A DNA stretch of 64,000 nt from Deltaproteobacteria bacterium (GTDB lineage: Bacteria; Myxococcota; Myxococcia; Myxococcales; Anaeromyxobacteraceae): assembly GCA_016214955.1 (NCBI GenBank), contig JACRMN010000002.1, positions 124,001 to 188,000 of the forward strand, read 5' to 3'. The position numbers were made by a program, and so were the translations under genes. Under the pieces are notes generated by a model that ran no database searches, was not told the origin of the DNA, and saw only the letters and a list, made by a program, of their open reading frames with translations. Of this stretch, positions 4,371-58,679 are shown one piece after another (positions within the stretch are counted from its first letter, which is position 1; the number at the start of each line of letters is the position of its first letter).

Positions 4371-4372
4371 CG

Positions 4373-5449: not shown

Positions 5450-6163
5450 GCGCGCCCATCCTGGAGATCAAGCAGGTCTACAAGCTCTTCGGCGGCCTGG
5501 CGGCCAACTCCGACGTCTCCTTCCAGATGGAGGAGGGCATGATCCTGGGGCTCATCGGCCCCAACGGCGCCGGCAAGACGACGCTCTTCAACTGCATCAC
5601 CGGCTACTACCCGCCCACCCGGGGCGAGGTGCTCTTCCAGGGCAAGCGCCTCAACGGGCTCGAGCCCGACCAGGTGTGCAAGCTGGGCATGGCCCGCACC
5701 TGGCAGAAGGTGCGGCCGCTCGCCAAGATGACGGTGCTCGACAACGTCATGGTGGGGGCGCTGTGCCGGACCGGCTCCCTCAAGGTGGCCCGCGACATCG
5801 CCCTGGAGCAGCTCCACGTCGTCAAGCTGGAGCACAAGAACGGCTTCCTGGCCGGCGGGTTGCCCATCGGCGAGCGCAAGAAGCTGGAGGTGGCCCGGGT
5901 GCTGGCCACCAAGCCGACGCTGCTCCTGCTCGACGAGGTCATGGGCGGCCTCAACCCGGCCGAGAGCGACGAGATCATCCAGCTCATCCTCGACCTCAAG
6001 AAGCGCGGTCTGACCCAGATGGTCATCGAGCACGACATGAAGGCCATCATGCGCATCAGCGACCGCATCGTGGTGCTCAACTCGGGCGCCAAGCTGGCCG
6101 AGGGGCTGCCGCAGGAGATCGTCAGCAACAAGGACGTGATCACCGCCTACCTGGGAGACGCCC

Positions 6164-6171
<8 letters not shown>
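5446..6171 (+). CDS. livG: Branched-chain amino acid ABC transporter ATP-binding protein LivG
   Basis: Cytoplasmic ATPase of 241 residues starting with an ATG that overlaps the livM stop by 4 bases. Walker A GPNGAGKTT is at residues about 38-46, Walker B LLLLDEVMGGL near 158-168, followed by the switch histidine in MVIEHDMKAIM. The signature loop is divergent: the expected LSxGQ is replaced by LPIGERKKLEVARVL, as in many LivG proteins. It is somewhat short for the family (about 250). It pairs with LivF to power LivHM. Confidence 0.95.
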
Positions 6172-6877
<706 letters not shown>

Positions 6878-6941
6878 CGCCCCCGGGCAGGCCCCCGGCT
6901 GCTTCTCCTGGGGCGGGGGGCCAGGGCCCCCGGCGACACGG

Positions 6942-8837: not shown

Positions 8838-9449
8838 GTGCGAAAGGGCGAGGCCACGCGCGAGGCGGTGATCGGGCTGGCGCTCTCGCACGCCGCCGAG
8901 GTCGGGCTCAACGGCGTCACGCTGGGCGTGCTCGCCGGCAGGGCCCGGCTCTCCAAGAGCGGCCTCTTCGCCCACTTCCGCTCCAAGGAGGCGCTCCAGC
9001 TGGCGGTGCTGGAGGAGGCCATCCGCCGCTTCGGCGAGGCGGTGGTGGCGCCGGCGCTGGCCAGGCCCCGCGGCGAGCCGCGCCTGGCGGCCCTGTTCCG
9101 CAACTACCTGGTCTGGATCCGCGGCAACAAGGGTGGCACCGGCTGCATCTTCCAGTCGCTGAGCGAGGAGTACGACGACAGGCCCGGCCCGGTCCGCGAC
9201 CGGCTGGTGCGCGCCCTCTCCGACTGGCGCGCGGCGCTGGCCCGGGCCACGGCCCAGGCGGTGGAGGAGGGCCACTTCCGCGCCGGGGTCGAGCCCGACC
9301 AGGTGGCCTACGAGCTCGTCGGCATCGCCAAGGTCTACCACGAGTCGTACAAGCTGCTCGCCGACCCCGGCGCCCAGGACCGGGCGCAGCGCGCCTTCGA
9401 GCGGCTGCTCGCCGAGGCCCGCGCCGCGCCGGCCCGGCGCCGGCGCTGA
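8838..9449 (+). CDS. TetR/AcrR family transcriptional regulator
   Basis: Repressor of 203 residues starting at a GTG. The N-terminal helix-turn-helix is clear (residues about 8-55: GVTLGVLAGRARLSKSGLFA then HFRSKEALQLAVLEEA). The C-terminal ligand domain contains NYLVWIRGNKGGTGCIFQSL, seen in TetR members with a TetR_C_6-type domain. It lies between two inverted copies of a 20-bp operator, with acyl-CoA dehydrogenase on one side and an alpha/beta hydrolase on the other. That context suggests control of an acyl or ester degradation function with an acyl-CoA-like inducer; the inducer is a guess. Confidence 0.92.
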   Translation: MRKGEATREAVIGLALSHAAEVGLNGVTLGVLAGRARLSKSGLFAHFRSKEALQLAVLEEAIRRFGEAVVAPALARPRGEPRLAALFRNYLVWIRGNKGGTGCIFQSLSEEYDDRPGPVRDRLVRALSDWRAALARATAQAVEEGHFRAGVEPDQVAYELVGIAKVYHESYKLLADPGAQDRAQRAFERLLAEARAAPARRRR

Positions 9450-9497
9450 ACGGCACCGGGGCTCCCGGGGTGAATCCCGGGGCTCCCGCGCCCACTA

Positions 9498-9517
9498 AAT
9501 AGCACGACCGTTCGGTT
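9498..9517. promoter_or_regulatory. TetR operator copy 2
   Basis: AATAGCACGACCGTTCGGTT is the exact reverse complement of the site at 8810-8829. It sits 28 bases before the start codon of the alpha/beta hydrolase, where a bound repressor would cover the promoter or the early transcript. Confidence 0.7.
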
Positions 9518-9545
9518 GTGAATTGGGAGGGGAAGGAGCGAGGAG

Positions 9546-10463
9546 ATGGACGCTGCGCGCATCGTCGTCGAGAAGGGGCCGGGCTCGCCCGGCCGGTCCG
9601 GTCGAGGCTTCACCCTGCGCGCCCTGCGGGCGGGCATGGGGGCGCTGGGGGCGTTGGCGCCCGGAGCTGCCGCGCGGCTCGCCGAGCGGCTCTGGTTCAC
9701 GCCGCCGCGCCTGCCTCCGCCGCGGGACGCCGCGAGCCGCCACGGCGCTGCCCGGCCCTTCGCCCTCTACCCCGGAGGCCGCGAGGTGGTGGGCTGGACG
9801 CTGGGCGACGGCCCGGCGGTGCTGCTCATGCACGGCTGGGGCGGACGCGCCGCCCAGCTCCTGCCGCTCGCCGAGGCACTGGCGGCGCGCGGGCTGCGCG
9901 CGGTGGCCCTCGACGCCCCGGGCCACGGCGCCTCCGGGCCGAGCCGCCTGGGGCGCAGCCAGTCCACCTTCTTCGACTTCGCCGACGCGCTCCTCGAGGC
10001 CTCGGCCCTCCTCGGCCCGGCGGTGGCGCTGGCGGCCCACTCCGGCGGGGCCGTGGCCACGCTCCTGGCCCTGCGCGGCGGTCTCTCGCCGGAGCGGGTG
10101 GTGCTGCTCGCGCCCATGAGCCGCCCGGCGCGGTACGCCGACAGGTACCGGGAGGCGCTGGGGCTGCCGGCCCGGGTGGACGCGGCCTGGCGGGCGCAGG
10201 CCGCGGCGCGCCTGGGCTTCGCCTGGGAGGACCTGGACCTGGTCCGCTCGGCCCGCGAGGCGCCGCCGGCCACGCTGGTGATCCACGACCGCCAGGACCG
10301 GGAGGTGGAGTTCGCCGACGGCGAGGCGGTGGCGGAAGGCTGGCCCGGCGCGCGGCTCGTGGCCACGAGCGGGCTGGGCCACCGGCGACTCCTCAAGGAG
10401 CCGAGGGTGCTCGGGCTGGCGGCCGACTTCCTGGCCGGAGCGCGTCATCCCGACCCAGCGTGA
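9546..10463 (+). CDS. Alpha/beta hydrolase
   Basis: Cytoplasmic hydrolase of 305 residues. The oxyanion strand VLLMHGWGGRAAQLLPLAEA is near residues 91-110, the nucleophile elbow is AAHSGGA (Ser near 164), a candidate acid is in LVIHDRQDREV and the catalytic histidine is in GLGHRRLLKEP near 278-288. The first 70 residues are basic and poorly conserved. A purine-rich ribosome site (GGAGGGGAAGGAGCGAGGAG) precedes the ATG. The operator 28 bases upstream places it under the neighbouring TetR protein. The substrate is unknown; an ester or lipid is plausible beside an acyl-CoA dehydrogenase. Confidence 0.88.
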   Translation: MDAARIVVEKGPGSPGRSGRGFTLRALRAGMGALGALAPGAAARLAERLWFTPPRLPPPRDAASRHGAARPFALYPGGREVVGWTLGDGPAVLLMHGWGGRAAQLLPLAEALAARGLRAVALDAPGHGASGPSRLGRSQSTFFDFADALLEASALLGPAVALAAHSGGAVATLLALRGGLSPERVVLLAPMSRPARYADRYREALGLPARVDAAWRAQAAARLGFAWEDLDLVRSAREAPPATLVIHDRQDREVEFADGEAVAEGWPGARLVATSGLGHRRLLKEPRVLGLAADFLAGARHPDPA

Positions 10464-10569: not shown

Positions 10570-11988
<1,419 letters not shown>

Positions 11989-12093
11989 TTAACCTCGCGG
12001 CGTCCCGAGGGTCTCCCGGCCATGGCGCAGGCGCAGCACCGCGGGCACGAGGGAGGAGCGGGGCCGAGGCTTCGCCTCCTCGCGGGTGGCGGA

Positions 12094-44265: not shown

Positions 44266-45750
44266 CTAGTCCTTCCTCTCCAAGTCCGCCTGTATCGCCT
44301 CGAACTGCTCCAGCGCCGCCCGCAGGTCCTCGGCGATCTCGGCCGCGATGACTTCGGGCGGCGGCAGGTTGGCCGAGTCCTCCAGGCTCTCGTCCTTGAG
44401 CCAGAAGATGTCGAGGCTGGCCTTGTCGCGGGCGAGCAGCTCGTCGATGCCGTAGCTGCGCCAGCGGCCCTCGGGCTTCTTCTCGCCCCAGGTCGCCTTG
44501 CGGGTCTGGACCGCGCCGGGCTTGCAGACCTCGACGAACTCGTCGAGGTCCTCGCGCTTCAGGGGGTTGGTCTTGAGGGTGAAGTCCTTGTTGGTCCGCA
44601 GGTCGTAGATCCACAGCTTCTGGGTCCACGGCTTCGCGGCGCCGGGCTTCTTGGTGAAGAAGAGGACGTTCGCCTTCACGCCCTGGGCATAGAAGATGCC
44701 GGTGGGCAGCCGCAGCAGGGTGTGGACGTCGCACTCGGCGAGGAGCTTCCGCCGCACCACCTCGCCGGCCCCGCCCTCGAAGAGCACGTTGTCGGGCACC
44801 ACGACCGCGGCGCGCCCGTTCACGTCGAGCAGAGTCCGCACGTGCTGGACGAAGTTGAGCTGCTTGTTGGAGGTGCTGGCCCAGAAGTCCTGGCGCTCCA
44901 CCTGGAGGCTCGCCTTCTCGGCCTCCCCCTCCTCGGTGACATAGGTGATGCTCGACTTCCGGCCAAAGGGCGGGTTGGTGAGCACCATCGAGAAGCGCGC
45001 ACCGGGGTCGGAGCGCAGGGCGTCGTCGACAGCGATGGGGGAGTCGTCGCCGCCGATGCCGTGGAGCACCAGGTTCATGGCGCAGAGCCGCGCCGTGCTG
45101 TCCACGATCTCCCAGCCGCGGAGCGCCTCGAGCCGCAGGTGCTTCTTCTGGTCCTTGTCGAGCTTGTGGTGCTTCTGGATGTAGTCGTGGGCGGCCAGGA
45201 GGAAGCCGCCGGTGCCGCAGGCCGGGTCGCAGACGGTCTCGTCGGGCCCGGGTTGCATGACGTCCACGATGGCCCGGATGAGGGCGCGCGGCGTGAAGTA
45301 CTGGCCGGCGCCGCTCTTCGTGTCCTGGGCGTTCTTCTCGAGGAGCCCCTCGTAGGCGTCGCCCTTCACGTCGGCGTCGAGCGTGGACCACTGCTCCCCG
45401 TCGATGAGGTCGGCGATGAGGCGGCGAAGCTTGGCGGGGTCCTGGATCTTGTTCTGGGCCTTCCGGAAGATGATGCCGAGCATTCCGGGCTGCTTGCCGA
45501 GCCGCTCGAGGACGTGCCGGTAGTGGGTCTCCAGCTCGTCGCCGTCCCGCTTCCTGAGGCTCGGCCAGTCGCAGTCCTTGGGGAACGGCGACGGCTTGTT
45601 CCACGGCGCCTGCGTCTGCTCGTGCGCCATCTTCAGGAAGAGGAGGCACGTGAGCTGCTCGACGTAGTCGCCGTAGGAGAGGCCATCGTCACGGAGGACG
45701 GCGCAGTAGTTCCAGAGCTTGGTGACGATCTGTTGCGTATCTTGCGGCAT
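44266..45750 (-). CDS. hsdM: Type I restriction-modification system DNA methyltransferase subunit
   Basis: N6-adenine methyltransferase, 494 residues. The N-terminal helical HsdM_N domain (residues about 8-140; WNYCAVLRDDGLSYGDYVEQ) is followed by the SAM-binding motif VCDPACGTGGFLLAAHDY (near 175-192) and the catalytic TNPPFGRKS (near 258-266). QYFTPRALIRAIVDVMQPGP precedes motif I as expected. It forms the M2S methylase with HsdS and, with HsdR, the restriction complex. It lies 3 bases after the hsdS stop. Confidence 0.95.
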   Translation of the reverse strand: MPQDTQQIVTKLWNYCAVLRDDGLSYGDYVEQLTCLLFLKMAHEQTQAPWNKPSPFPKDCDWPSLRKRDGDELETHYRHVLERLGKQPGMLGIIFRKAQNKIQDPAKLRRLIADLIDGEQWSTLDADVKGDAYEGLLEKNAQDTKSGAGQYFTPRALIRAIVDVMQPGPDETVCDPACGTGGFLLAAHDYIQKHHKLDKDQKKHLRLEALRGWEIVDSTARLCAMNLVLHGIGGDDSPIAVDDALRSDPGARFSMVLTNPPFGRKSSITYVTEEGEAEKASLQVERQDFWASTSNKQLNFVQHVRTLLDVNGRAAVVVPDNVLFEGGAGEVVRRKLLAECDVHTLLRLPTGIFYAQGVKANVLFFTKKPGAAKPWTQKLWIYDLRTNKDFTLKTNPLKREDLDEFVEVCKPGAVQTRKATWGEKKPEGRWRSYGIDELLARDKASLDIFWLKDESLEDSANLPPPEVIAAEIAEDLRAALEQFEAIQADLERKD

Positions 45751-45753
45751 CCC

Positions 45754-47100
45754 TTAGCCTCCCAACGTGGCGCGAAGCGGGATGTCGCCCAGGCCCAGTC
45801 GGCCTTCGAAGGCCGCGTGCAGCAACGACGACCGCAGTGTTGTCGCGCGATGCAAACTGGATTCGACGGTTCGACCGACGGCGTCACAGAGCGAGAGACG
45901 TCGCTGGACCTCGGCCACAATGAGTCGTCGCTCACTCGGTGGCGGGATCGGAATCGGCGTCGCCCGCAAGTCAGCCCCCGAGATCCCCGCTTGGCCTGCG
46001 GTGGTGCGTACGCGTGACGCGACAAAGGCCCTCGATACGCCAGCGTTCGCTGCAATTTCAACGTAGCGACCCAGGTCCTGATCGAGGAGGCATGCGCGAA
46101 TCAGCTTGTCCGGATGGACTAGGGGCCCGGCGAGGGCGGGCACGCGGCCGCAGACGCCAACCAAGTCGTAGTTGCCGTTGTAGCGAGTGAAGAGGAGATC
46201 CCCCTCGCTGAGCAGGTAGTCTGACTCACCTCCCCGCATGTCGGGCAGGTAGCGCACATCAGAAACGTCCACCCTCAGCGGGCGCACCGCTGAGATACGA
46301 AGAATCTTGAGCCCCTGGTCGCGGTCGGGCTTGGCCGAGATTCCGTTGCGAATCACACCAGTCAGTTGATCCAACGTGGCCCACTCCCAGCCCCTCGGGA
46401 GACTCGGAAGACCTGATTCCGGGGCCAGCGCCTGCCGCTTCTGTCTCGCCGCCCTCAGGGTCGCCATACGCCCCAAGAAGTCGTGTGCAGACTCGTCACT
46501 CGCCGCACGCCGCGGGGGCGGAACCAAGGAGCCGCTACATGCGGCGATAAGCACCGCCGCCCGGTACCGCCGCAGGTGGGCCTGGAGCCGCTTGAGCGCC
46601 TCGACGCCGACATCGAGGCGGGTGAACTGCTTCTCGATCTCGGCGACGATCCGGGCCTGCTGGTCAGGCGGCGGCACTACCAGCGAGAGCTTCTTCATCG
46701 GCGCCTGCGGAAGCTTGAGGCGCGTCGTCCCTGTAACGGCGCCGTGGTAGTCGAGGGCGTTCAGCTGGTGCATCAGGAAGAGGTTCGAGACGCCCCTTCC
46801 GCGAAGAACATGGGCGTGGTTGTTCACCCAGGACTTCCCGCGAACGACGTACGCCTTGGGCTTCGAGGGATGGAGGAAGGGGGCTCCGTCCTCTCCGAGA
46901 AGGACCAGTTCCTCATCGAATAGATGCTTGTCAATCCAGCCTACCTGGCCGGTCGCCCCGTAGTAGGGGATGGACCCGCTGCGCTTCTCCCGCTCCTCCG
47001 CGTTCACTGGGACGCGAAGCCGGTCAAGAATGTCAACCACATCCCCGAGGGGCCTCCGGGCCCACCCGCTGGGAAGAACCGCGTTGCTAGGATCACTCAC
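45754..47100 (-). CDS. hsdS: Type I restriction-modification specificity subunit
   Basis: DNA recognition subunit, 448 residues, with two target recognition domains: residues about 10-190 (LPSGWARRPLGDVVDI ... KLSLVVPPPDQQARIVAEIE) and about 230-440 (LPRGWEWATLDQLTGVI ... IPIPPPSERRLIVAEVQRRL). Each ends in the helical spacer that fixes the gap in the bipartite site. Both halves look intact, so an asymmetric two-part target is expected; the sequence recognised cannot be read off. The GTG start overlaps the hsdR stop by 4 bases (GTGA). Confidence 0.94.
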   Translation of the reverse strand: MSDPSNAVLPSGWARRPLGDVVDILDRLRVPVNAEEREKRSGSIPYYGATGQVGWIDKHLFDEELVLLGEDGAPFLHPSKPKAYVVRGKSWVNNHAHVLRGRGVSNLFLMHQLNALDYHGAVTGTTRLKLPQAPMKKLSLVVPPPDQQARIVAEIEKQFTRLDVGVEALKRLQAHLRRYRAAVLIAACSGSLVPPPRRAASDESAHDFLGRMATLRAARQKRQALAPESGLPSLPRGWEWATLDQLTGVIRNGISAKPDRDQGLKILRISAVRPLRVDVSDVRYLPDMRGGESDYLLSEGDLLFTRYNGNYDLVGVCGRVPALAGPLVHPDKLIRACLLDQDLGRYVEIAANAGVSRAFVASRVRTTAGQAGISGADLRATPIPIPPPSERRLIVAEVQRRLSLCDAVGRTVESSLHRATTLRSSLLHAAFEGRLGLGDIPLRATLGG

Positions 47101-49973
47101 GCGACGAGGACCTCATTCAGCTCCTCCAGCATCGGCTCCAACTCCTCCCCGAAAAGCGCGTACACCCTTCCCAGCCCGCCCTTCTGGCTGAACGGCACCT
47201 CGTCGAAGTCGTCCTTCTCGATGCCGAAGCTCGTGGCGACATGGTCCTTGATGGCCGCGAGCCACTCGAGCTGCTCGGGCGTGAAGCGCTGCCCCCGGTT
47301 TGCCTGCTGCGCGAGCCAGGCCTGGTACCGCGTCTCGACCCGCTCGACGAACGGGACCAGGGCTGGGTCGCGATGAAGCGCATACCGGACCAGCGAGACC
47401 ACGTCGGTGAGTAGCCGCTTGGCGCCGGCGCCCCGGACCTTGGAGCGGTCCAGCTGCTCGTAGGCCCGCCAGAGGAGGTCGGGCGTCCAGGAGCGGGGCG
47501 GCGCCTGGATGGCCTCGGCTAGCGCCCGGATGTCCTTGAATCGGAGGCGCCTGGCGTAGGGCTGCGAATAGAGAACCTGGAGGGCGACGATCTCGTCCTT
47601 GTTCTGCTCGATGAACTTCTCGAAGTCGGCCACGAGCCCCTTGGCCTTCTCGCGTGCCTCGGCCGAGTAGCCCGCCTCGAGCAGCTCGTCCTGGGTCACG
47701 GTGTCGATGGTCTGCTCGTACTTGCTCTTCAGGTCGACGAGGGCGTTCCGCAGCTTGGGGTTGGTCGCCAGCGGGGCCACCGCCTCCTTGAGGAGCGCCG
47801 CGGCAGCCTTTGCCACCGCCTCCGGCGCTGGCTCCGCGCCTTTGGGGAGCTTCCCGGCTGCCCGCGCCTCCTCGATGTGACGGTCGGGGTCGAGCGCGGT
47901 CACCAGCCGCTGCACCAGCTCCGGAAGCGGGACGCCCCCGGCAAGCTCGGCGATGCGGCCCTGCTCGGCCTTGCCGAGCTGCCGGCTCAGGCGGGCCAGG
48001 CGGCTCGCCAGCGAGGAGACGATCTCGGTGCTGGTGTTGCCGAAGGTGACGGCGTTCACGAGCTTCTCGAAGGAGACGGTGGGGTTCTTCTCGAGCGGCT
48101 TCGAGTCCATCATCTCCGTCTCACAGACACCGACGGCGTCCACGATGACGAAGTGGTCCTTGGTCCTGGCGTCGGGCGTCACCGCCTGGAGGTCGGCGTC
48201 GTCGATGACCCGGACGCCCCGCCCCTTCATCTGCTCGAAGAAGTTCCGGCTCCTCACCGATCGCATGAACATCACCACCTCGAGCGGCTTCACGTCGGTG
48301 CCGGTGGCGATCATGTCGACGGTGACCACGATGCGGGGGTTGAAGCTGTTCCGGAAGGCCGAGAGCAGGTGCTCGGGCTGCACGCCGGTGGACTTGTAGG
48401 TGACGGCGCCGGTGACGGGGTCCACTACGCGGGCGGTGCCCGTGCGATAGGTGATCTTCTCGCAGAATTCGTTGCCGCGGCCGAAGACCTCGCGCACGTG
48501 CTTCACGATGTCGTCGGCGTGCGCGTCGTCCACCGCGAAGATGAGGGTCTTCGGGACCTCGGTGCGCCCCGGGAAGATCTCGGTGAAGAGCCGGTCCTTG
48601 AAGGTGCGGACCACGGTGCGGATCTGGTCGGGCGCCACCACGTCGCGGTTGAGGTCGCTCGCCTCGTAGGTGAACGGCTCGTCGAGCTTCTCCCAGCGGA
48701 CCTTCCGGGTGTCGCGCTCCCGCTTGTCCACGTAGTTCTCGGCCTCGACCGTCGCGCCGCCCTCGCCGATGCGGGTCCGGATCCGGTAAACCGTGAAGTC
48801 GACGTTGCAGCCGTCGGCCACGGCAGCCTCGTGGCCGTACTCCTGGACCAGGTTCTGGTCGAAGAAGCCGAAGGTCTGCTTCGACGGCGTCGCGGTGAGG
48901 CCGACGAGGTAGCTGTCGAAGTACTCGAGGACCTGGCGCCAGAGGTTGTAGATGGACCGGTGGGCCTCGTCAGTCCAGATGAAGTCGAAGGTCTCGATGG
49001 GGATGGCCGGATTGTAGGCAACCGGCACCGGGTCCTTGCGCAGGTCGTCGAGGGTGAAGGCCGAGGCCTCGTCCAGCTCGGGCGGCAGCTCCTCGCCCTT
49101 CAGCATCGAGTAGAGGCGCTGGATGGTGCAGATGCAGACCCGGGCCACCGGGTCGAGCTTGTTGGACGTGAGGAGCTGGACGTTGAACAGGTCCGTGAAC
49201 TTCCGGCCGTCGTCGGGCGTGACGTACTGCTGGAACTCCTTGAGGGCCTGACGGCCGAGGTTGCCGCGGTCCACCAGGAAGAGCACCCGGCGTGCCTTGG
49301 CCTCCTTGACGAGCCGGTAGATGGACGAGACCGCCGTGAAGGTCTTGCCCGACCCCGTGGCCATCTGGATGAGGGCGCGCGGGCGGTCGGCGGCGAGGGA
49401 CAGCTCGAGGTTCCGGATGGCCCGAGCCTGCGCGGGCCAGAGCCCCTTCTCGTCGAGGGCGGGGAGGTGGCGCAGCCGGGCGCGGAGCGTGGCCGGGCGC
49501 TGGCTCTCCGGCTGCGGCTTGCCGTTCACGAGGGGCAGCCAGAGCGGCTCCTCCTCGAGCCAGGCGGCCAGGGTCTCCGGCCGGTGGAAGGAGAAGACCC
49601 GGCGGCTGCGCGGCTCGGGGTCGAGGAGGTTGATGAACCGTGTCTCGACGCCGGTGGACAGGTACAGGAAGGGCAGCGGCCGACGATGGGCGGGGAAGCT
49701 GGCCGGGAAGCCGGTGGCGTACTTCTCGGCCTGGACCTCGACCCCGGAGAGCGCCACACCCGCCTTCTTGGCCTCGACGATGCCGGCGGCCTTGCCGTCC
49801 ACGAAGAGTGCGTAGTCCGCGTGGCCGTGGCCCTTGGCGAGGGGGAACTCGCAGACCGCGACTCCGCGGCTCGCGGACAGGTTCACCTGGTCGGCGGTCT
49901 GCACCACCCAGCCGGCGGTCGTGAGGGCGGCGTCGATGACCTCTCGCGCCTGCTGTTCGGGAGTGAGCGGCAG
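47097..49973 (-). CDS. hsdR: Type I restriction endonuclease / translocase subunit
   Basis: ATP-driven translocase and nuclease, about 958 residues. The N-terminal nuclease core is HADYALFVDGKAAGIVEAKK (Asp...Glu-x-Lys). The helicase domain follows: MATGSGKTFTAVSS (Walker A), IWTDEAHRSIYNLWRQV (DEAH) and LVGLTATPSK. The C-terminal part is the helical EcoEI-type HsdR domain. No ATG, GTG or TTG lies before GTG 49907, yet the same frame upstream encodes the conserved family start PLTPEQQAREVIDAALTTAG. A CTG at 49973 with GAGG 7 bases before it fits, so I place the start there; 49907 is the conservative alternative. It is first in the six-gene leftward operon. Confidence 0.93.
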   Translation of the reverse strand: MPLTPEQQAREVIDAALTTAGWVVQTADQVNLSASRGVAVCEFPLAKGHGHADYALFVDGKAAGIVEAKKAGVALSGVEVQAEKYATGFPASFPAHRRPLPFLYLSTGVETRFINLLDPEPRSRRVFSFHRPETLAAWLEEEPLWLPLVNGKPQPESQRPATLRARLRHLPALDEKGLWPAQARAIRNLELSLAADRPRALIQMATGSGKTFTAVSSIYRLVKEAKARRVLFLVDRGNLGRQALKEFQQYVTPDDGRKFTDLFNVQLLTSNKLDPVARVCICTIQRLYSMLKGEELPPELDEASAFTLDDLRKDPVPVAYNPAIPIETFDFIWTDEAHRSIYNLWRQVLEYFDSYLVGLTATPSKQTFGFFDQNLVQEYGHEAAVADGCNVDFTVYRIRTRIGEGGATVEAENYVDKRERDTRKVRWEKLDEPFTYEASDLNRDVVAPDQIRTVVRTFKDRLFTEIFPGRTEVPKTLIFAVDDAHADDIVKHVREVFGRGNEFCEKITYRTGTARVVDPVTGAVTYKSTGVQPEHLLSAFRNSFNPRIVVTVDMIATGTDVKPLEVVMFMRSVRSRNFFEQMKGRGVRVIDDADLQAVTPDARTKDHFVIVDAVGVCETEMMDSKPLEKNPTVSFEKLVNAVTFGNTSTEIVSSLASRLARLSRQLGKAEQGRIAELAGGVPLPELVQRLVTALDPDRHIEEARAAGKLPKGAEPAPEAVAKAAAALLKEAVAPLATNPKLRNALVDLKSKYEQTIDTVTQDELLEAGYSAEAREKAKGLVADFEKFIEQNKDEIVALQVLYSQPYARRLRFKDIRALAEAIQAPPRSWTPDLLWRAYEQLDRSKVRGAGAKRLLTDVVSLVRYALHRDPALVPFVERVETRYQAWLAQQANRGQRFTPEQLEWLAAIKDHVATSFGIEKDDFDEVPFSQKGGLGRVYALFGEELEPMLEELNEVLVA

Positions 49974-50036
49974 GTGGGTGCCTCGATGGAGTCGGACGAG
50001 GGGTGATTCTGCCTCAAGGACGGACGGGGGTCGACC

Positions 50037-50189
50037 ATGGAACTGGAGGCCGAGGGCCTCTATCGCGCAGCGTCCTCAGGAGCCGCGCTCGACCCGCTCC
50101 GCCGCCTACCCGAACTGACGCCGCCCGCGCCTTCCCTCTACGCCGAGCAGATAGCCAGGCGCTATTGCGGAAACCGCCAACCGAGATAG
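50037..50189 (+). CDS. Possible small ORF of 50 residues
   Basis: An ATG with an upstream GGACGGGGG begins a 50-codon frame (MELEAEGLYRAASSGAALDP and so on) between divergent hsdR and the 417-residue gene. It has no recognised family; it could be a remnant or a small regulator of the flanking systems. An inverted repeat (CGCTAT / ATAGCG, about 50159-50191) overlaps its end. Confidence 0.25.
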   Translation: MELEAEGLYRAASSGAALDPLRRLPELTPPAPSLYAEQIARRYCGNRQPR

Positions 50190-50226
50190 CGGAATCCGCA
50201 GCGCGTGCCGCGTCAGGCTAACCGCA

Positions 50227-50232
50227 TACAAT
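50227..50232 (+). promoter_or_regulatory. Possible -10 box giving a near-leaderless transcript
   Basis: TACAAT ends 7 bases before the ATG at 50240, so transcription would begin at or next to the start codon. No good -35 is visible, and no ribosome site precedes the ATG, which fits leaderless translation. Confidence 0.35.
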
Positions 50233-50239
50233 AGATTGA

Positions 50240-51493
50240 ATGAAGGAGGAACTGATTCAGCTCATGCAGAGCGACTGGAGTGCGTCGCCTTGGTTTACGC
50301 AAGGTGAAGACGAGATCTTCACCGCAATGGGCTTTCCGCTCCACGCGCGCCGAGACGCGGTCGCTCACCTGAGGCGTGTCTTCACGACCGAAGTCTGTCG
50401 CGAGATTGCGGTTGATCCCAAGCGCTTCTACGGGAAGGCCGCCCTGTTCTTTCAGGAGTGCTGGCCAGGTCTTCTGGTCCCGCTGCTCGACGTAGGGACA
50501 GATCTCGGAGTCACGCAGCCCTGGAGCGACGAAGGGCTCCTGAAGCGCCTGACCAGGCGGGCCACCTTCGATGATGCTGCGTTCGAGCTGCGCGTGCTTT
50601 CGAACCTTCTCCGGGGTCGCTATCCGGCTCGACGGATCCCCGAGGCGCCGCCGCAGAAGACTCCGGATCTCGAGGTGCAGGTAGGTCTCGACAGATACGA
50701 GGTCGAGCTGAAGGCCGTCAACGATTCGCCACTAGACGTCGCCGCCGAGACCATCAACGAGCAGCTGCTCAGAGCCGATGTGATCGCGCCGGGTCTCCAC
50801 CTGGAACTGCGCGGATCCGAGGAGTTGGCGGAAAGGGCGTTCGAGGACCTCGATGGCGTCCTCGCCGAAGCGCGAGCTGTCGTCGCGGCATACGAGGCTT
50901 GCGTATCCGGCATCCGCCGCGAGGGTGCCAAGCCGGGCGTGTACGAAGCCCCACCCTACGGCACCATCCATGCGGTGTCGGGTCCAGAGGGAGGCTCGGT
51001 GACCCCGGTGGTCCTGCCCGCCCTCCCCGACTACAAGCGAATCAACAAGCTGGTTCGGTTGGTGCGGGACGCCTGTCGGCAGTTCTCTCGTCGAAAGGGC
51101 GTGGCGGTGGTCGGGGTCCATCGAACCGCCGACATGCTCGACACCAGTGAAGCGATCAAGGCGGCGGCCGCCGCCGACCCGGCCGCGTTCTCCAAGTGTC
51201 AGATGGTCGTCCTGGTCGACAGCGTGAAGGACCCGAATCGGGAGTACGGGGCCATTCCGCTGGTGGTGGCAGTTCAGGTGCACGCCAGGCGCGAGCTGTC
51301 CAAGGCCCTAGTTCGAATGGCCGCGGTTGCCGCCGGCAGACGGGGGCGAAGCGCGAGCTTCATCCGCCGGACGCTCCCCGGCGAGGAAGGTTTTGCCATG
51401 GGGACGGTTCGCCGAGCGATGACGGCCGCCACCATTCCGGCGGACGGCAAGATCGATGTCGGCAAGATGATCCCGGGAGCGGCGAGCAAGTAG
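50240..51493 (+). CDS. Uncharacterised protein with possible restriction-endonuclease-like core
   Basis: A 417-residue protein I cannot assign to a family. Residues about 112-160 (FELRVLSNLLRGRYPARRIP then TPDLEVQVGLDRYEVELKAV) place Glu, Asp and Glu-x-Lys in the order of a PD-(D/E)XK nuclease: Asp near 143, Glu near 153 and Lys near 155. The C-terminal 200 residues hold strands such as GVAVVGVHRTADM and MVVLVDSVKDPN. There is no signal peptide or membrane segment. It is followed 183 bases later by ParA and SIR2 genes in the same direction, suggesting one functional cassette. The nuclease idea is inference from spacing only. Confidence 0.65.
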   Translation: MKEELIQLMQSDWSASPWFTQGEDEIFTAMGFPLHARRDAVAHLRRVFTTEVCREIAVDPKRFYGKAALFFQECWPGLLVPLLDVGTDLGVTQPWSDEGLLKRLTRRATFDDAAFELRVLSNLLRGRYPARRIPEAPPQKTPDLEVQVGLDRYEVELKAVNDSPLDVAAETINEQLLRADVIAPGLHLELRGSEELAERAFEDLDGVLAEARAVVAAYEACVSGIRREGAKPGVYEAPPYGTIHAVSGPEGGSVTPVVLPALPDYKRINKLVRLVRDACRQFSRRKGVAVVGVHRTADMLDTSEAIKAAAAADPAAFSKCQMVVLVDSVKDPNREYGAIPLVVAVQVHARRELSKALVRMAAVAAGRRGRSASFIRRTLPGEEGFAMGTVRRAMTAATIPADGKIDVGKMIPGAASK

Positions 51494-51676
51494 CTCCCTA
51501 AGCGGGAGCGGCTGTCCGTTCGCGCCCTGCATGGCGTTCATCCTGTAGGTGTCGATGACAGTAGGTGGAGGAGCCAGGGAGGCGATATTTCAGGAACCAC
51601 GGTGAAGGCGGCTGGGTTCCTGAGGCATACTGCTGCTCCGCGAGTGCTAGGTGCCATAGGGTTCACTGGGGGAGCC

Positions 51677-52714
51677 ATGAAGTCTGTCGTGTTCTTCAAC
51701 AACAAGGGCGGGGTTGGAAAGACGACGCTTGCCTGCAACGTCGGTGCTGCACTCGCCGGGCTCCTCAAGCAGCGAGTGCTCCTCGTCGACTGCGATCCTC
51801 AGTGCAACTCGACTCAGCTCGTCGTGGACGAAGACACGTGCTCCAGGCTGTACTGGGACGCCGACGCCAAGTCCGCAACCACGGTGATGAGTGTCCTGCA
51901 ACCCATCCAGGACGGCGACGCATCTATCAGCAAGAATGCAACGCCGCTGCTGGGGAGCAAGAACCGATTCGGAATCGACATACTCCCAGGGCACCCGCGC
52001 CTTTCCGTCGTCGAAGACAAGCTCAGCCTCGCTTGGGGCGAAACCATCGCGGGCGACATCGGCGGGATCAGAAAGACGAACTGGTGCCTCTATCTCTGCC
52101 GAGAGCTGCAGGACAGGTACGACGTCATTCTGTTCGACGTTGGCCCATCACTAGGGTCACTGAACCGGACCGTCCTGCTCGGCGCGGACTACTTCGTGAC
52201 GCCGATGGGGTCGGACATCTTCTCGATCGTGGGCGTGCGCAACATCGCCGAGTGGCTCAAGCAGTGGCTTGACCTCTATGACGCCGGCGTCCTCGCGTGC
52301 GAGCGGCGACACCCGAAGGCGCTTGAGCAGTACAACCTCGTTCGGAACCTCGCGATTCGCCGCGGCTTCGCCGGCTACACGGTCCAGCAGTACATCGCCA
52401 AGTCCATCAAAGGCGAGCGCCGACCTACGCTGGCATTCGACCAAATCCTCCAGCAGATGCCGACCGAGATGGCCGGGCGGCTAGGAGAGTTCGCGGTCGA
52501 CAAAATCGACGCCGCAGCGCTGAAGCTCGGCGACGTGCCCAACATGTACTCGTTGGTTCCACTGGCACAGTCGGCTCATGCGCCGATCCTTGACCTGTCT
52601 GGCGGCGACGGCATCCGGGGAAGTGGGTACAAGCAGGTCGAGAAGTACGCGAAGATCATCGACACGGTTGCGCGCGCTCTCGCGCGGAACATCGGCATCG
52701 GAGGGAAGGCGTGA
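51677..52714 (+). CDS. ParA/Soj-type ATPase, partner of SIR2 gene
   Basis: A 345-residue P-loop ATPase from the ATG at 51677 (GGGGGAGCC upstream). The deviant Walker A is FFNNKGGVGKTTLACNVG (residues about 6-23), the A' motif is VLLVDCDPQCNSTQLVV (near 35-51) and Walker B is VILFDVGPSLGSLNRTVL (near 152-169). The length is greater than plasmid partition ParA (about 260) because of a long C-terminal half with IGVRNIAEWLKQWLDLY-like helices. No parB or centromere repeats are present. The stop overlaps the SIR2 gene by 4 bases, so this is a dedicated pair rather than a partition locus. Confidence 0.85.
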   Translation: MKSVVFFNNKGGVGKTTLACNVGAALAGLLKQRVLLVDCDPQCNSTQLVVDEDTCSRLYWDADAKSATTVMSVLQPIQDGDASISKNATPLLGSKNRFGIDILPGHPRLSVVEDKLSLAWGETIAGDIGGIRKTNWCLYLCRELQDRYDVILFDVGPSLGSLNRTVLLGADYFVTPMGSDIFSIVGVRNIAEWLKQWLDLYDAGVLACERRHPKALEQYNLVRNLAIRRGFAGYTVQQYIAKSIKGERRPTLAFDQILQQMPTEMAGRLGEFAVDKIDAAALKLGDVPNMYSLVPLAQSAHAPILDLSGGDGIRGSGYKQVEKYAKIIDTVARALARNIGIGGKA

Positions 52715-53586
52715 GTCCCGTCATCCGGTGGCCGAGCACGCTCGTCGTCGAGGTCGCTGAGCGACGGTGCATTCCGTTCTTGGGGGCCGGCGTATCTGCT
52801 GGATGCGAGTCGACCGTTGCGCCGGGTAAGCGGCCAGTGCCATGGAAAGCCTTCCTGGAAGGCGCGCTGCCGCTGCTTCGGAATCCAGCCGACCAGACGG
52901 CTGTCACGGAGCTAATTGGGAAGGAGCAGTACCTAGACGCCGCCCAGGTGGTGGTTGATGAGGCGGATCGCGCCGAGTTCGAGCAGTACATCCGTAGCGA
53001 ATTCATGCTGCCGAAGTACAAGCCCTCGCCCGTTCACGAAATACTGCTTGAGCTCGATCCCAAGATCGTTATCACCACCAACTACGACGACATCTACGAG
53101 CAGTACTGCAAGTCCGGCAAAGCTGAAGAGGGTTACAACGTTTGCAGATACTACGAGTCACACGCCATCAATGACATTCGTTCGGATGTACGGCTGATCC
53201 TGAAGGCACACGGGTGCATTTCGGATCCGAGCAAGGTAGTTCTCAGCCGCTCCCAGTACTTCGACGCGAAGCGATTGCACCACGGGTTCTACGACGTGCT
53301 CGATGCGTTGTTCCTCACGAACACGCTCCTATTTGTCGGGTGTGGGCTCTCCGACCCAGATATCCAACTCGTGCTCGAGAACGCAAACATCTCGGCGCCG
53401 AGCACGCATCCTCACTACGCGCTCGTGCCAGGAGGACGTCATCGCGCGCTCACCGGAGCGATCAGGAAGAGCTACAACATCGAACTGCTCGAGTACCCTA
53501 CACCCGGCGGCGACCACACAGCCCTCATCACCGCGCTGCGTGAGTTGCAGGACGCGGTTGCAGCGGAGCGCGCGACTTCGCCTTAG
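52711..53586 (+). CDS. SIR2-family NAD-processing protein
   Basis: A 291-residue protein starting at a GTG that overlaps the ParA stop. SIR2 motifs are clear: IPFLGAGVSAGCES (residues about 21-34), IVITTNYDDIYEQYCKSG (near 117-134) with the Asn and Asp, LILKAHGCISDPSKVVLSRS with the catalytic His (near 163-182), and LLFVGCGLSDPDIQLVLENA (near 207-226). This is the SIR2_2 type found in phage defence, where infection triggers NAD+ loss and cell death. There is no added sensor domain, so the coupled ParA-like protein may supply the sensing or the control. Function in defence is inferred from family and neighbourhood. Confidence 0.88.
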   Translation: MSPVIRWPSTLVVEVAERRCIPFLGAGVSAGCESTVAPGKRPVPWKAFLEGALPLLRNPADQTAVTELIGKEQYLDAAQVVVDEADRAEFEQYIRSEFMLPKYKPSPVHEILLELDPKIVITTNYDDIYEQYCKSGKAEEGYNVCRYYESHAINDIRSDVRLILKAHGCISDPSKVVLSRSQYFDAKRLHHGFYDVLDALFLTNTLLFVGCGLSDPDIQLVLENANISAPSTHPHYALVPGGRHRALTGAIRKSYNIELLEYPTPGGDHTALITALRELQDAVAAERATSP

Positions 53587-53673
53587 CCAGAGGTACCTCG
53601 CGTAGCGGTTGGCAGGCCAGTCACCGAGAACGCGGATGCGACTGCGAAGGCTCGCTTCCGCGCGACAGCGCGC

Positions 53674-54342
53674 CTACAGCCTCCACCGCCCGGCCTCGAC
53701 GAAGCTGAAGTAGCCGGTGGCGGCGACGACCACATGGTCGCGCGCCAGCACCCCGACCAGCTCTGCGGCGGCTCTCAGACGCTCCGTGAGGTCCACGTCA
53801 TCAGCGCTTGGGGTCGCGTCGCCGCTGCTCGGATGATTGTGGACGAAGACGATACCGTGGGCCGAGGCGCGCAGCGCCTCCCTGAGAACGTCCCTGGGTG
53901 ACACCGGGCACTGGGTGAGCGAGCCCTCTGCGATCCGGGCGGTCTTGATGAGGCGCCCCCGAACGTCCAGGAGGACGACGTGGAATTCCTCGCGCTCGGC
54001 GTGCGCGACGTGGCGCATAAGCTCCCAGACCCTGGCCGGGTCCAGGACGCGGTCGCCGCGTCGCGGCGGGGCCCAGGCCCCACGGCGTCCCAGCTCGAAC
54101 GCCGCTGCGATGGCGGCAGCTCTGACCGGGCCGATCCCGGGGGTGCCCTGCAACTCCTCCGGTGTGCTCCAGGCCATCTGGGCCAGGGTGGTCTTGGCGA
54201 GCAGCTGGTGTGCAGCATCGCGGGTGCTGTTGCTTCCCGAGGCGGGGCCCAGGAGCACGGTGATGAGCTCGTGGTCGGCCAGTGAACGGGGGCCATGGGT
54301 GTGGAGTCGGTCGTAGGCCGAGAGAACGGCGGGGCAAGTCAC
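53674..54342 (-). CDS. radC: Element-borne RadC family protein (intact)
   Basis: A complete 222-residue RadC from a GTG with GGAGG 6 bases upstream; the frame is open further but unlike the family. The helix-hairpin-helix (LQGTPGIGPVRAAAIAAAFE) is followed by the MPN/JAMM motif VHNHPSSGDATPSADDVDL (near 167-185) and the terminal ARDHVVVAATGYFSFVEAGR. The central 90 residues are strikingly similar to the interrupted chromosomal radC (ELGRRGAWAPPRRG and EGSLTQCPVSPRDVLREAL). It may replace the lost host gene. One oddity is an extra Ser in HNHPSSGD. It lies between the SIR2 and recombinase genes. Confidence 0.93.
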   Translation of the reverse strand: MTCPAVLSAYDRLHTHGPRSLADHELITVLLGPASGSNSTRDAAHQLLAKTTLAQMAWSTPEELQGTPGIGPVRAAAIAAAFELGRRGAWAPPRRGDRVLDPARVWELMRHVAHAEREEFHVVLLDVRGRLIKTARIAEGSLTQCPVSPRDVLREALRASAHGIVFVHNHPSSGDATPSADDVDLTERLRAAAELVGVLARDHVVVAATGYFSFVEAGRWRL

Positions 54343-54546
54343 ATCGAACCTCCAGATGCGGGGTGACGGCGGGCAGCTCGGCGAAGCGGGCTGCCCGTCG
54401 GCGCACCGGCGAGCCGCAGGCCGTTGCCAAGCCCGTGCCAGGCCATGCATCCCCGATCTACAGGGATGGGCGAAGCGGGGGGTTGCGTGGCGGCCGGCAG
54501 GCTGTTCCCCGGACGCCTGAACGAGTCATCGCGTCACAACGGAGCC
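54343..54546. other. Gap between element radC and helicase remnant
   Basis: About 200 bases on the far side of the radC start. It should contain the promoter of the element radC; I see no gene and no clear consensus boxes. Confidence 0.4.
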
Positions 54547-54876: not shown

Positions 54877-56103
54877 CTACTGGCTCGGGCTCGAACGGTT
54901 GGTGCGTCTATCGCGGATTCTCAGGGTCAAGCCGGCCCAGTTGCTACGGGCCGCGAGGCTGCCCCCCCCCCGAGGCCGGGGCGTCCTCCTGGCGTCGGTG
55001 CTCGTCGCCGCGCCTAGGCCATTGCCTGCCAGCGCCCGAAGCGCCTCCCGACTCGCCGCCCCGAGATCCGGGACCGCCGCGCGCCCTGAGCGCTTCAGGG
55101 CATCCAGGAAGCCAAAGGCCTCCTCACGCTGCGCCTTCGACCATCGACGAGATGGGCTGAGCGTCGGCAGCGCCTCGAGAGTCTTTCGCTTGAGCCTTAG
55201 GCTTGCCTCCAGGTACTTGTGTGTCGTCTCCAGGCTCTCGTGGCCCATGAACAGCGAGATGGCCGCGAGGCTCATCCCCTCATTCAAAATGTGCATCGCC
55301 GTCGTGTGTCGGATGACGTGCGGGGAGACGCGACGCCCCTGGAGCGAGGGGCACTCCTTCGCCGCAAACTCGGCAGCCGCCGAGAGGCGAAGAGAAACTC
55401 CGGACCTGGTCATCCGGTTCCCGGTGCGGTTGGGGAAGAGCGGAGCGACACCGGAAGCCAGGCTCTCCTCCCATGCCCGCAACATGGCCGCGACCTTGGT
55501 CGGCAGCACCAGGACCCGCTCCTTTCGGCCCTTGCCGTGGACACGGACGTGGGCCAAGCCATCTCGCAGAAGGAAGTCACGTCGATCGATGTTGACCAGT
55601 TCCGTGACGCGGCAGGCCGTGTAGTACGCAGTTGTCAGCAGTGCCCGATCGCGGCGGCCACTCCACGTGGGCCTGTCCGCGGCCCGCAGGACCGCATCCA
55701 TCTCCTCGCGACTCAAGTAGCCGACGAGGCGCTCGTCGAACCTCTTCTGGGGTATCGCGAGCACCTGCTGAACCTGTACCAGCGCCGACGGCACCCTCAC
55801 CCCGACATAGGTGAAGAAGGACTTGATCGCTGCAAGGCGCTGGTTTCGGGTCCGCGGGGCGTTCCCGCGATTCTTCTCCAGGTGCAGCAAGAACCCCAGG
55901 ACCGTCGACGAGCTCCAGTCGGCGAGCTCGAGGGCCGCAAGATCAAGGTTGAGTTCATCGCAACAGTACGCGACGACCAGCTGAAATGTTGTGGAGTAGC
56001 TCTGGACCGTGCTGCGGCTTGCGCCTCGCTCGTGTGGCAGGTGCTCCGTCAGGAACTCCTCGAGGAGCTGCGGAAGAGACGGTACCTGACCCGGGCGCTT
56101 CAT
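54877..56103 (-). CDS. Tyrosine recombinase, third gene of the trio
   Basis: A 408-residue recombinase. The N-terminal SAM-like core-binding domain spans residues about 10-120 (LLEEFLTEHLPHERGASRST). The catalytic domain has TACRVTELVNIDRRDF (Arg near 166), HGKGRKERVLVLP (Lys), PHVIRHTTAMHIL (His-x-x-Arg near 262-267) and FMGHESLETTHKYLEA (His and nucleophile Tyr near 285-295), so all catalytic residues are present. A 60-residue basic tail follows, containing a run of ten C in the DNA (54962-54971). The start ATG overlaps the preceding gene's stop (ATGA). Confidence 0.93.
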   Translation of the reverse strand: MKRPGQVPSLPQLLEEFLTEHLPHERGASRSTVQSYSTTFQLVVAYCCDELNLDLAALELADWSSSTVLGFLLHLEKNRGNAPRTRNQRLAAIKSFFTYVGVRVPSALVQVQQVLAIPQKRFDERLVGYLSREEMDAVLRAADRPTWSGRRDRALLTTAYYTACRVTELVNIDRRDFLLRDGLAHVRVHGKGRKERVLVLPTKVAAMLRAWEESLASGVAPLFPNRTGNRMTRSGVSLRLSAAAEFAAKECPSLQGRRVSPHVIRHTTAMHILNEGMSLAAISLFMGHESLETTHKYLEASLRLKRKTLEALPTLSPSRRWSKAQREEAFGFLDALKRSGRAAVPDLGAASREALRALAGNGLGAATSTDARRTPRPRGGGSLAARSNWAGLTLRIRDRRTNRSSPSQ

Positions 56104-57053
56104 AGGACTGGGCTGTGCGGCCGGATATCGACGAGACGTTCCATGTTCCCTGCCACGAGGTAGTGGAGCTCCGGTACCGCGGTCAGGTACCAGTAGGTGC
56201 TGCCTGGCGAGGTGTGGCCCATGTACGCCGAGAGCGCTGGCATCTCGGCATCGACGTCCTTCCCCGACCGCATCCATGCGAGGAGAACTCGCACCGCGAA
56301 GGTGTGGCGAAGGTCGTGCAGGCGCGGACGAGGGGTCGGGCGCTCCCAAAGTACCGACCCTCGAAGCTGGCGGAACGTCCTGTTGACGAGGCCGTAGTCG
56401 AGCCTCGAGGCGCGGGTCTCGGTGAGAAGGAAGGCTGAAGCTCTGGGGACCGGGTGTCGCAACGTGCGGCGTCGACGATACTCGCGCAGCGCATGCACGG
56501 TTGAGTTGCAGAGTGGGAGTAGCCTTGAGCGGCCGGCCTTGTCCTCTCGAACGAGGAGGGTCCCTGCCTCCAGATCCACATCCCGATCGTCGAGCGCCAG
56601 CGCTTCGCCGATGCGGAGGCCGACTGCATCCAGGAGCCCACACAACGTCTCATAGGTGTGGGGGCGGAGCCCCTTGTTGGGACCCAAGGTAAGAGCAGCG
56701 TTCATCAGGGAGTCGACCTCGGCATCGGAGTACACATACGGGCTACGTCGCCTATGTTGGGGGCCGAGGTACCCCGGGGGGAGAAACGGCGTGCCGGGGC
56801 GCTTCGCGGCGATGCAAGCTAGGACGCGGCGAACGGCCTCGTAGCGCTGAGCAGCGTACCGCGCCGAGCCCTGCGGCGTAGCTCGAGCCCAGTCCACAAC
56901 GGTCTTGAGCGTGACTTCTCTGCACCGCGAGTTGTCGACATATCGCGCGAATCTCAGGACCTCGTCGCGCTCGCCGCGCAACTTGAAGCCAAGCTTCCTG
57001 CGCCAGGAGAAGTGGTCCTCGACCAGAGAAACCAGCGACGCCGACCTACTCAT
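56100..57053 (-). CDS. Tyrosine recombinase, second gene of the trio
   Basis: A 317-residue recombinase. The core-binding domain is at residues about 5-95, and the catalytic domain has VGLRIGEALALDDRDVDL (Arg near 148), EDKAGRSRLLPL (Lys region), RLHDLRHTFAVRVLL (His-x-x-Arg near 243-250) and YMGHTSPGSTYWYLTAVPEL (Tyr near 290). The shorter length and YWYL nucleophile region are typical of the middle gene of RIT-like trios. It overlaps its upstream partner by 8 bases and its downstream partner by 4, so the three proteins are made together. Confidence 0.93.
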   Translation of the reverse strand: MSRSASLVSLVEDHFSWRRKLGFKLRGERDEVLRFARYVDNSRCREVTLKTVVDWARATPQGSARYAAQRYEAVRRVLACIAAKRPGTPFLPPGYLGPQHRRRSPYVYSDAEVDSLMNAALTLGPNKGLRPHTYETLCGLLDAVGLRIGEALALDDRDVDLEAGTLLVREDKAGRSRLLPLCNSTVHALREYRRRRTLRHPVPRASAFLLTETRASRLDYGLVNRTFRQLRGSVLWERPTPRPRLHDLRHTFAVRVLLAWMRSGKDVDAEMPALSAYMGHTSPGSTYWYLTAVPELHYLVAGNMERLVDIRPHSPVL

Positions 57054-58320
57054 GATGAAGCTCCATCCGAGTCCTTGCGGGCCACGGACGGGCTGCGCTC
57101 CTCAACCGCCCTAGATCGACGCGGACGTACCGAGTCGTAGTATCGATGGAGGCGTGCCCCAGCAGGTCGGCGACGCCTTTCAGAGAAACTTTCCGAGCCA
57201 CGAGGTTGGTCGCAAGGCTGTGACGAAGAACGTGTGACCCAAGAGACACATGCCGAATCCCGGCGCGTCTGAATGCCCGCCTAACTATGGCTGACACGCC
57301 CGCTGGCGTGACCCGCTTGTCGAACGGGTGGTTCTCGGCGAGGAAAAGTGCCGCGCAACGTGTGGCACGCCTGTAGCGTCGGACATAGTCCAGAATCGCA
57401 TCCGCTGCTGCCCTGGGAAGAGGAACCACTCGGCCTCGTCGCGACTTGCTCTTGCGGATCCTCAGCGTCGATCCACGCGCATCGAAGTCGTCGAGGTCGA
57501 GTCGAGTGAGGTCCGAGCGCCTGAGGCCTCCCGACGCAAGCACCAGAAGAACCGCGAAGTCGCGCGCCGCGGTCCTCGTCCTCTCCCGAAGAGGCCGCAA
57601 GAGAAGCCGGACCTGCGGCAGAGTCAGGGCCTTCGTCGACCATTGTCGCGAGCGGAGCTTGGGCCCAAGAATGCCTGAACGGGCTGCCGGCGCCGGGCGA
57701 CCGATTGCCTCGAGGTAGCGGCAGAAGCCGCGCAGGACGTTGGCGACGTGCCTAGAATTGGGCACATGGCCAGCTTCGGCAATTGAAAGAATGTAGCGGT
57801 TGATCCGTTCAGTTGTCAGCATCGACCTGTGGAACCTGGCGCTCGGCATCAACGCTACAAGAGCGGGGCGCAGCAGTTTCGCAGCAAGCTTCCTGGTGTC
57901 ATCGGCAGCGCCCCGCACTTCTGCCAGGTACTCATCGTACCTCGCGAGTTCATCGCTGAACGGGGCAACCCGAGCTGGTGGAGCGAGTCCGATCCTCTGC
58001 AGGAAGAGCGCGAAGCTCTTCATCGCGGGCTGCGCATTGGAGTTGGGAGCCTCCGGGAAGGCGCACCCACACGATCGCGGGAAACCCCTTACGAACCTGA
58101 TGAGGCGCCCGAGGACGAGGTCCGTGCGTCTGAGCTTCTGGTGTTCAAGGCACCAGGTAACGTGGCGCGCCACTCGGACGTAGGCGCCTATCGTCTTTAC
58201 AGCGTAGCCCTTTGACTCCAGTTCAAGAGCCCAGTCGCTCAGCGTCTCGGCGTATGGCCCCGATTCGATGTACTCGCGAAGGCCACGGTAGGAGGAGAAG
58301 TATCGGCCAGCAGTCGACAT
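57046..58320 (-). CDS. Tyrosine recombinase, first gene of the trio
   Basis: A 424-residue recombinase when read from the ATG at 58320 (MSTAGRYFSSYRGLREYIES); the frame is open further but unlike the family. An extended N-terminal domain (residues about 1-200, with Cys-containing FPRSCGCAFPEAPN) precedes the catalytic domain: ASGGLRRSDLTRLDLDDF (Arg near 262), RKSKSRRGRVVPLP (Lys), GSHVLRHSLATNLVA (His-x-x-Arg near 365-372) and LLGHASIDTTTRYVRVDL (Tyr near 395). It is the gene nearest the right end of the element and heads the operon. Confidence 0.93.
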   Translation of the reverse strand: MSTAGRYFSSYRGLREYIESGPYAETLSDWALELESKGYAVKTIGAYVRVARHVTWCLEHQKLRRTDLVLGRLIRFVRGFPRSCGCAFPEAPNSNAQPAMKSFALFLQRIGLAPPARVAPFSDELARYDEYLAEVRGAADDTRKLAAKLLRPALVALMPSARFHRSMLTTERINRYILSIAEAGHVPNSRHVANVLRGFCRYLEAIGRPAPAARSGILGPKLRSRQWSTKALTLPQVRLLLRPLRERTRTAARDFAVLLVLASGGLRRSDLTRLDLDDFDARGSTLRIRKSKSRRGRVVPLPRAAADAILDYVRRYRRATRCAALFLAENHPFDKRVTPAGVSAIVRRAFRRAGIRHVSLGSHVLRHSLATNLVARKVSLKGVADLLGHASIDTTTRYVRVDLGRLRSAARPWPARTRMELHHE

Positions 58321-58679
58321 GCGCTGAGCCTGGCATCGGTGCCCAAGAACGCAAATTCTCCGACGTTTGCAGCCGTCGTCAAACGAAGATCTATCGTACG
58401 GTATATCGAACATTGCATCGTATTGGGCCTGAGGAGCGCCTGTTTCGTGAGGCGGCGCTTGTCTGATACGCACTACCGGTCACACGCACCCGGATGGGTG
58501 CAGCGTGCGGCGCCGGCGCCACATGGCTAGCGCCATCAGTCCCAGGAGTCGGGACGGGCGCCCAGCCCCTGTTATGCTGAGTCTGGCGGCGTGTCGTGGT
58601 CCGGTTCGTAGGCATCGCACAGGACGAATGTCGATAACTGGAGGCTCGCCATAATCCCGCTTATGCGCTGCAATCCATA
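58321..58679. other. Right end of the element: recombinase promoter region and terminal repeats
   Basis: About 360 bases without a gene. It should hold the promoter of the recombinase trio; GTACGATAGATCTTCG-like AT-richer sequence lies near 58387-58400 on the minus side. Near the edge are TTATGCGC (58661-58668) and CCATAA (58675-58680), an inverted pair related to words at the left end. Several GC hairpins (near 58505-58530) are also present. Confidence 0.5.

Follow-up and report, generated by a model that had tools for sequence, protein, structure and literature searches.

A conserved ParA-SIR2 gene pair as a probable two-gene anti-phage module with a ParA-type regulator

The question posed by the locus

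In a bacterium of the Anaeromyxobacteraceae (Myxococcota) the gene for a SIR2-domain protein overlaps that for a ParA-type ATPase, and the question raised by this arrangement is what a member of a protein class viewed as DNA-segregation machinery is doing beside an enzyme of a kind used in immunity. SIR2 NADases are known effectors, and the sensing part here appears to be the ParA ATPase; SIR2-effector immunity is the known part of such a system and the kind of regulator the new one. With a probability of about 0.76 the pair is a two-gene anti-phage module of the abortive-infection type, in which ParA serves as sensor or regulator and SIR2 as effector, and which is one branch of a family of ParA-plus-effector units. 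The stretch of DNA that was analysed, referred to here as the window, is 64,000 nucleotides long, and positions are those of the window unless another locus is named.

The locus and its flanks

An earlier note on this DNA, made from the sequence alone, had described three co-directional genes with a ParA-like ATPase among them, and the ORF list bears out their positions (50240-51493, about 51602-52714 and 52711-53586) with one correction. The start of ParA is most likely the ATG at 51674, and not that of the longer frame from 51602, because homologues begin there. The features to which the argument refers are as follows.

44266-49907, strand opposite to the pair: complete type I restriction-modification (R-M) system, to the left of the pair
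50240-51493, + strand: 417-residue protein, 180 bases upstream of ParA
51674-52714, + strand: ParA-like deviant Walker-A ATPase, 346 residues; AAA_31/ParA domain, E 2.6e-28; motifs KGGVGKTT, DCDPQ and FDVGPS
52711-52714, + strand: GTGA stop/start overlap of four bases between ParA and SIR2, read from the sequence
52711-53586, + strand: predicted SIR2-family NADase-like effector, 291 residues; GTG start; single domain; SIR2_2, E 5.9e-27

As bases 52711-52714 read GTGA, the start of SIR2 overlaps the stop of ParA, just as the earlier note had it. To the right of the pair are RadC and three tyrosine recombinases; the latter are consecutive (54877-58473, - strand) and are arranged like a recombinase-in-trio (RIT) element. 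The G+C content is 0.64-0.68 between about 36000 and 59000, against 0.71-0.78 over most of the remainder of the window, and this drop suggests that the stretch, which carries both the type I R-M system and ParA-SIR2, is an acquired island.

The 417-residue protein had been counted, as nuclease-like, among the members of the cassette, and on this point the earlier note is not supported. The gene is on the same strand and close to ParA, and PD142-143 and (E/D)LK156-158 are kept in the protein and in its only two relatives among 195 Myxococcota genomes, so that a nuclease is possible from the PD...(D/E)xK motif kept in all three sequences. However, both of those genomes lack a close ParA-SIR2 pair, and no relative was found in 92 homologous pair loci, in the plasmid set or, by peptide patterns, in the species-genome contigs. 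The protein matched no curated family, and its structure model (pLDDT 44) was too weak for a fold search. A three-gene cassette with this protein as its nuclease component is hardly credible. The gene is a neighbour and not a component, since the homologous pair loci carry no relative of it, and it was rejected as a third component.

The two proteins and the known SIR2 systems

The ATPase is of the ParA/MinD type, both by its Walker motifs and by its fold. The structure model (pLDDT 92) has as its best solved match PDB 3pg5, the C. diphtheriae (Corynebacterium diphtheriae) protein DIP2308 (fold E 1.3e-19, profile E 6.8e-89), followed by Soj and pNOB8 ParA, with a DNA-bound form among these matches. 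The structure of DIP2308, labelled uncharacterised when it came out in 2010, belongs to the same or a sister ParA family; a crystal structure from that family has therefore been public since 2010, as a structural-genomics entry without a function. Residues K11, K16, D39, D41 and D155 (deviant Walker A signature Lys, Walker A' Asp and Walker B Asp) are invariant in 84 of 84 homologues, and the same is true of G25, G27, N124, H167, D215 and P216 in SIR2. The earlier description of SIR2 as having intact catalytic residues and no sensor domain stands: the catalytic Asn124 and His167 and the Rossmann glycines (Gly25 and Gly27) are kept in a bare domain, and on these motifs the protein is predicted to be a SIR2 NADase. 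Its nearest solved relatives by profile are ThsA, DSR2, FAM118B and KomC, mostly phage-defence NADases; ThsA, DSR2 and KomC are bacterial defence proteins, FAM118B is not. Against PADLOC-DB the SIR2 protein gave partial matches only (ThsA, LmuA and Dsr) and ParA nothing specific, and neither protein matched NCBIfam above any cut-off, the Dsr2 model reaching 26.5 bits against SIR2 where its cut-off is 1400.

The pair falls outside the known SIR2 pairings, as had been supposed. SIR2-HerA (Nezha) is similar in that two genes, one for a SIR2 NADase and one for a P-loop ATPase, form a unit located among defence genes, but the ATPase here is of the ParA/MinD type and not the hexameric HerA, and the SIR2 subfamily differs; no window protein matched HerA, and the partner is an AAA_31/ParA protein in all loci. 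Thoeris ThsA and DSR1/DSR2 have the nearest SIR2 domains by profile and solved structure. The window protein, however, has neither the SLOG domain nor the TIR partner of Thoeris (ThsA models match its SIR2 part only, and there is no TIR gene among the scanned window neighbours), and it lacks the long phage-sensing C-terminus of the DSR proteins, which are about 1000 residues long against a bare domain of 291. With SLOG domain, TIR partner and phage-sensing C-terminus all missing, sensing would have to be the task of ParA. Neither the pair nor its scanned neighbours contain the Argonaute or APAZ component that would mark a SIR2-APAZ/short pAgo system. The earlier note knew of no published ParA-SIR2 system, and a search limited to PADLOC-DB 2.0, NCBIfam and the searchable open literature turned up none with these components.

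Conservation of the pair

ParA-SIR2 is a genuine conserved two-gene unit. ParA lies directly upstream of SIR2 in 109 of 112 homologous loci, a few of which are near-duplicates of one another (e.g. L039 and L115), and the remaining three are cut off there by a contig edge. In 195 Myxococcota genomes there were seven close SIR2 matches (above 140 bits), the window included, all with the same ParA directly upstream, and many distant ones besides, which were without that ParA within the upstream DNA examined. When one genome per species was scanned with a profile, 80 loci were obtained, 78 with ParA directly upstream and two (L071 and L098) at a contig edge; viral contigs contributed 19 members (ParA present in 18, contig edge in one) and plasmid records six more groups (Salmonella, Spirosoma, Vibrio, Burkholderia, Neorhizobium and Photobacterium). 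The spread over nine phyla and the 109 loci exclude the possibility, against which the earlier note had staked its proposal, that the pair is unique to this genome. That note had suggested a search for pairs with a four-base overlap and defence neighbours, and both were seen: the overlap is present in 38 of 84 pairs, most of the others being spaced within a few tens of bases, and defence contexts are described below. Pairwise identities of ParA and SIR2 are strongly correlated over the 84 pairs (Mantel r 0.79, where permutations reached at most 0.11), so the two proteins travel and evolve together. On viral contigs a ParA scoring above 260 bits with the profile always has a SIR2 partner, unless truncated, and one scoring below 260 bits never does. 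The SIR2 protein matched no phage GenBank record, although viral contigs carry the pair.

It might be asked whether this is simply a partition or segregation locus, with ParA at work in DNA partition and SIR2 either a bystander or a protein modifier. The ParA fold and all the partition ATPase motifs are present, the likeness to Soj and pNOB8 ParA extending to fold and Walker motifs, and a plasmid of V. ponticus carries the pair; but that plasmid has a separate ParA-ParB pair, and no ParB-like gene was found near the pair in the window, in line with the earlier note. Where a ParABS locus would have an adjacent ParB, the gene downstream of ParA is SIR2 in every complete locus, and this fixed partner is always retained. 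No parS was noted, and a search for clustered iterons or repeats, which a single parS would escape, found no array in 49900-54500. In a tree of 87 ParAs, whose outgroup branches are long and in which the deep order among clades is weakly resolved, the SIR2-linked proteins form one clade (support 99), and the outgroup of annotated or putative partition ParAs stands apart (94). A role in partition is thus very improbable.

Defence hotspots and restriction-modification neighbours

The pair resides in defence hotspots. Of 5426 complete E. coli genomes 12 carry it, and in each of the three that were inspected it occupies a P2-like prophage. There it lies between the portal gene and the region of the gpA replication endonuclease and dinI, a slot that is a hotspot of experimentally validated anti-phage systems (PMC9122126, PMC9519451). 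Among the contents of the P2 hotspot Rousset et al. name SIR2 genes as well as a putative partition system, and the pair may figure as an untested cassette entry in their supplementary list. The Enterobacter pair, used as a query, recovered the E. coli copies; the DNA of the Salmonella pair had no match in the E. coli genomes.

Elsewhere the neighbours are modification genes. A BamHI-type methyltransferase lies beside the pair in ten loci from several proteobacterial and Bacillota lineages (L073, L075, L077, L079, L080, L082, L087, L088, L096 and L097), accompanied in nine by an endonuclease of the BamHI family, and such an endonuclease was found in 10 of 50 pair-bearing genomes (nine at the pair) compared with 2 of 397 other Bacillota genomes. 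A lone N4/N6 DNA methyltransferase, without an obvious endonuclease, lies within 18 bases of the pair in seven loci (L032 at 8863-9993, L039 at 10875-12017, L040, L041, L067, L102 and L115). On the ParA tree the BamHI link needs at least two changes and the lone-methyltransferase link at least three, and from these few changes the links are judged recurrent but not general; many homologues have ordinary metabolic neighbours. The defence setting claimed for the pair is nevertheless real, in that it takes in the hotspot of P2-like prophages, R-M systems of type I and of the BamHI type, and lone methyltransferases.

Such neighbours bring to mind PrrC and PARIS, which guard restriction, and the pair could in the same way be an R-M accessory, a second line that fires once restriction-modification or methylation has been breached. 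This would account for the BamHI-type systems beside the pair in nine of the 50 genomes, for a lone-methyltransferase link gained several times and for the complete type I system that adjoins the pair in the window; most loci, however, have no methyltransferase next to the pair, and the E. coli copies in P2-like prophages have no R-M genes with them in that slot. The idea is a special form of the anti-phage module and not wholly exclusive of it, and as an explanation of the pair it is on the doubtful side. PARIS (AriA-AriB) is itself comparable as an ATPase with a toxic enzyme in P2/P4 hotspots and as a possible restriction guard, but AriA is an AAA_15/AAA_21-type ATPase and AriB a Toprim nuclease.

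A possible mechanism

For the preferred reading, an abortive-infection module, we infer a sequence of events in which ParA would, in the uninfected cell, hold SIR2 inactive, or SIR2 would be without the assembly that it needs. On infection the nucleotide- or DNA-bound state of ParA would change and SIR2 would be activated, the simplest guess for the active state of ParA being a dimer or filament on DNA. Activated SIR2 would then destroy NAD+, and with the cell halted or killed phage growth would be stopped. Partition ParAs bind DNA as ATP dimers without sequence preference, and by analogy with that fold, taken with the methyltransferase links, it is plausible that ParA senses incoming DNA. The links are compatible with a ParA that reads the state of DNA; a protein trigger is as possible. 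In the wider ParA-plus-effector set the effector may instead be a RelA/SpoT-domain (alarmone-synthetase-like) or a Schlafen/AlbA_2 protein.

Related ParA clades with other partners

There is a lower-scoring group of ParAs on viral contigs that has a tightly coupled partner of about 225 residues with a RelA/SpoT domain, nearest among solved structures to the small alarmone synthetases. In E. coli this pair occupies exactly the same P2-like slot as ParA-SIR2, in other strains, where it is annotated as 'ParA family protein / RelA/SpoT domain-containing protein', and it appears to be another ParA-plus-toxin unit not described so far. The toxSAS toxins and CapRel likewise have a RelA/SpoT-domain effector, but the regulator here is a separate ParA ATPase, neither a classical antitoxin nor a fused sensor. 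The order ParA then RelA/SpoT protein was observed in L186-L211 (viral contigs), L258 (5662-7445), L259 and L285 (4079-5769). In a third group the partner lies upstream of ParA; it has about 395 residues, with SLFN_AlbA_2 and HATPase_c_4 domains, and is joined to ParA by a four-base overlap in most loci. This group is found in Myxococcota and Mycobacteriales genomes and on the viral contig L181, where the pair (3758-5984) lies within a BREX operon, flanked by PglX and PglZ, the one such case. Loci of this Schlafen/AlbA_2-ParA type, besides that on L181, are L242-L249, L254, L256, L257 and L275-L281. In the tree of 87 ParAs the RelA-linked proteins form a clade of their own (100) and the Schlafen-linked ones fall within a third (99); the toxic partner has been exchanged between ParA clades.

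These findings bear on the suggestion that the pair is a toxin-antitoxin or addiction unit, a SIR2 toxin restrained by ParA for the upkeep of a mobile element rather than against phage. A coupled pair of small genes on plasmids and prophages, one of the two from families common on plasmids, is what would be expected of such a unit. However, most copies are on genome contigs, across nine phyla, those of E. coli sit in a slot known for defence genes, and effector exchange together with BREX and R-M neighbours fits immunity better. Addiction and immunity overlap mechanistically as ideas, but as the purpose of this pair addiction is improbable.

A broader proposal, which we put forward tentatively as possible rather than probable, is that ParA-type ATPases form an unrecognised class of infection sensors that pair stably with toxic effectors of at least three kinds (a SIR2 NADase, a RelA/SpoT-domain synthetase and a Schlafen/AlbA_2 protein). 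These ATPases would sense the state of DNA, such as unmethylated or exposed phage DNA, by a partition-like DNA-dependent dimerisation, the linked methyltransferases marking self. If ParA is indeed an immune switch with exchangeable toxic partners, many of the 'ParA family' genes of prophages and plasmids have been assigned the wrong role. Relatives of the SIR2-linked ParA that stand alone, without a recognisable partner, were also observed on viral and plasmid contigs (L044 at 5995-7002, L179, L180 and L182-L185), and one of these adjoins type I R-M genes.
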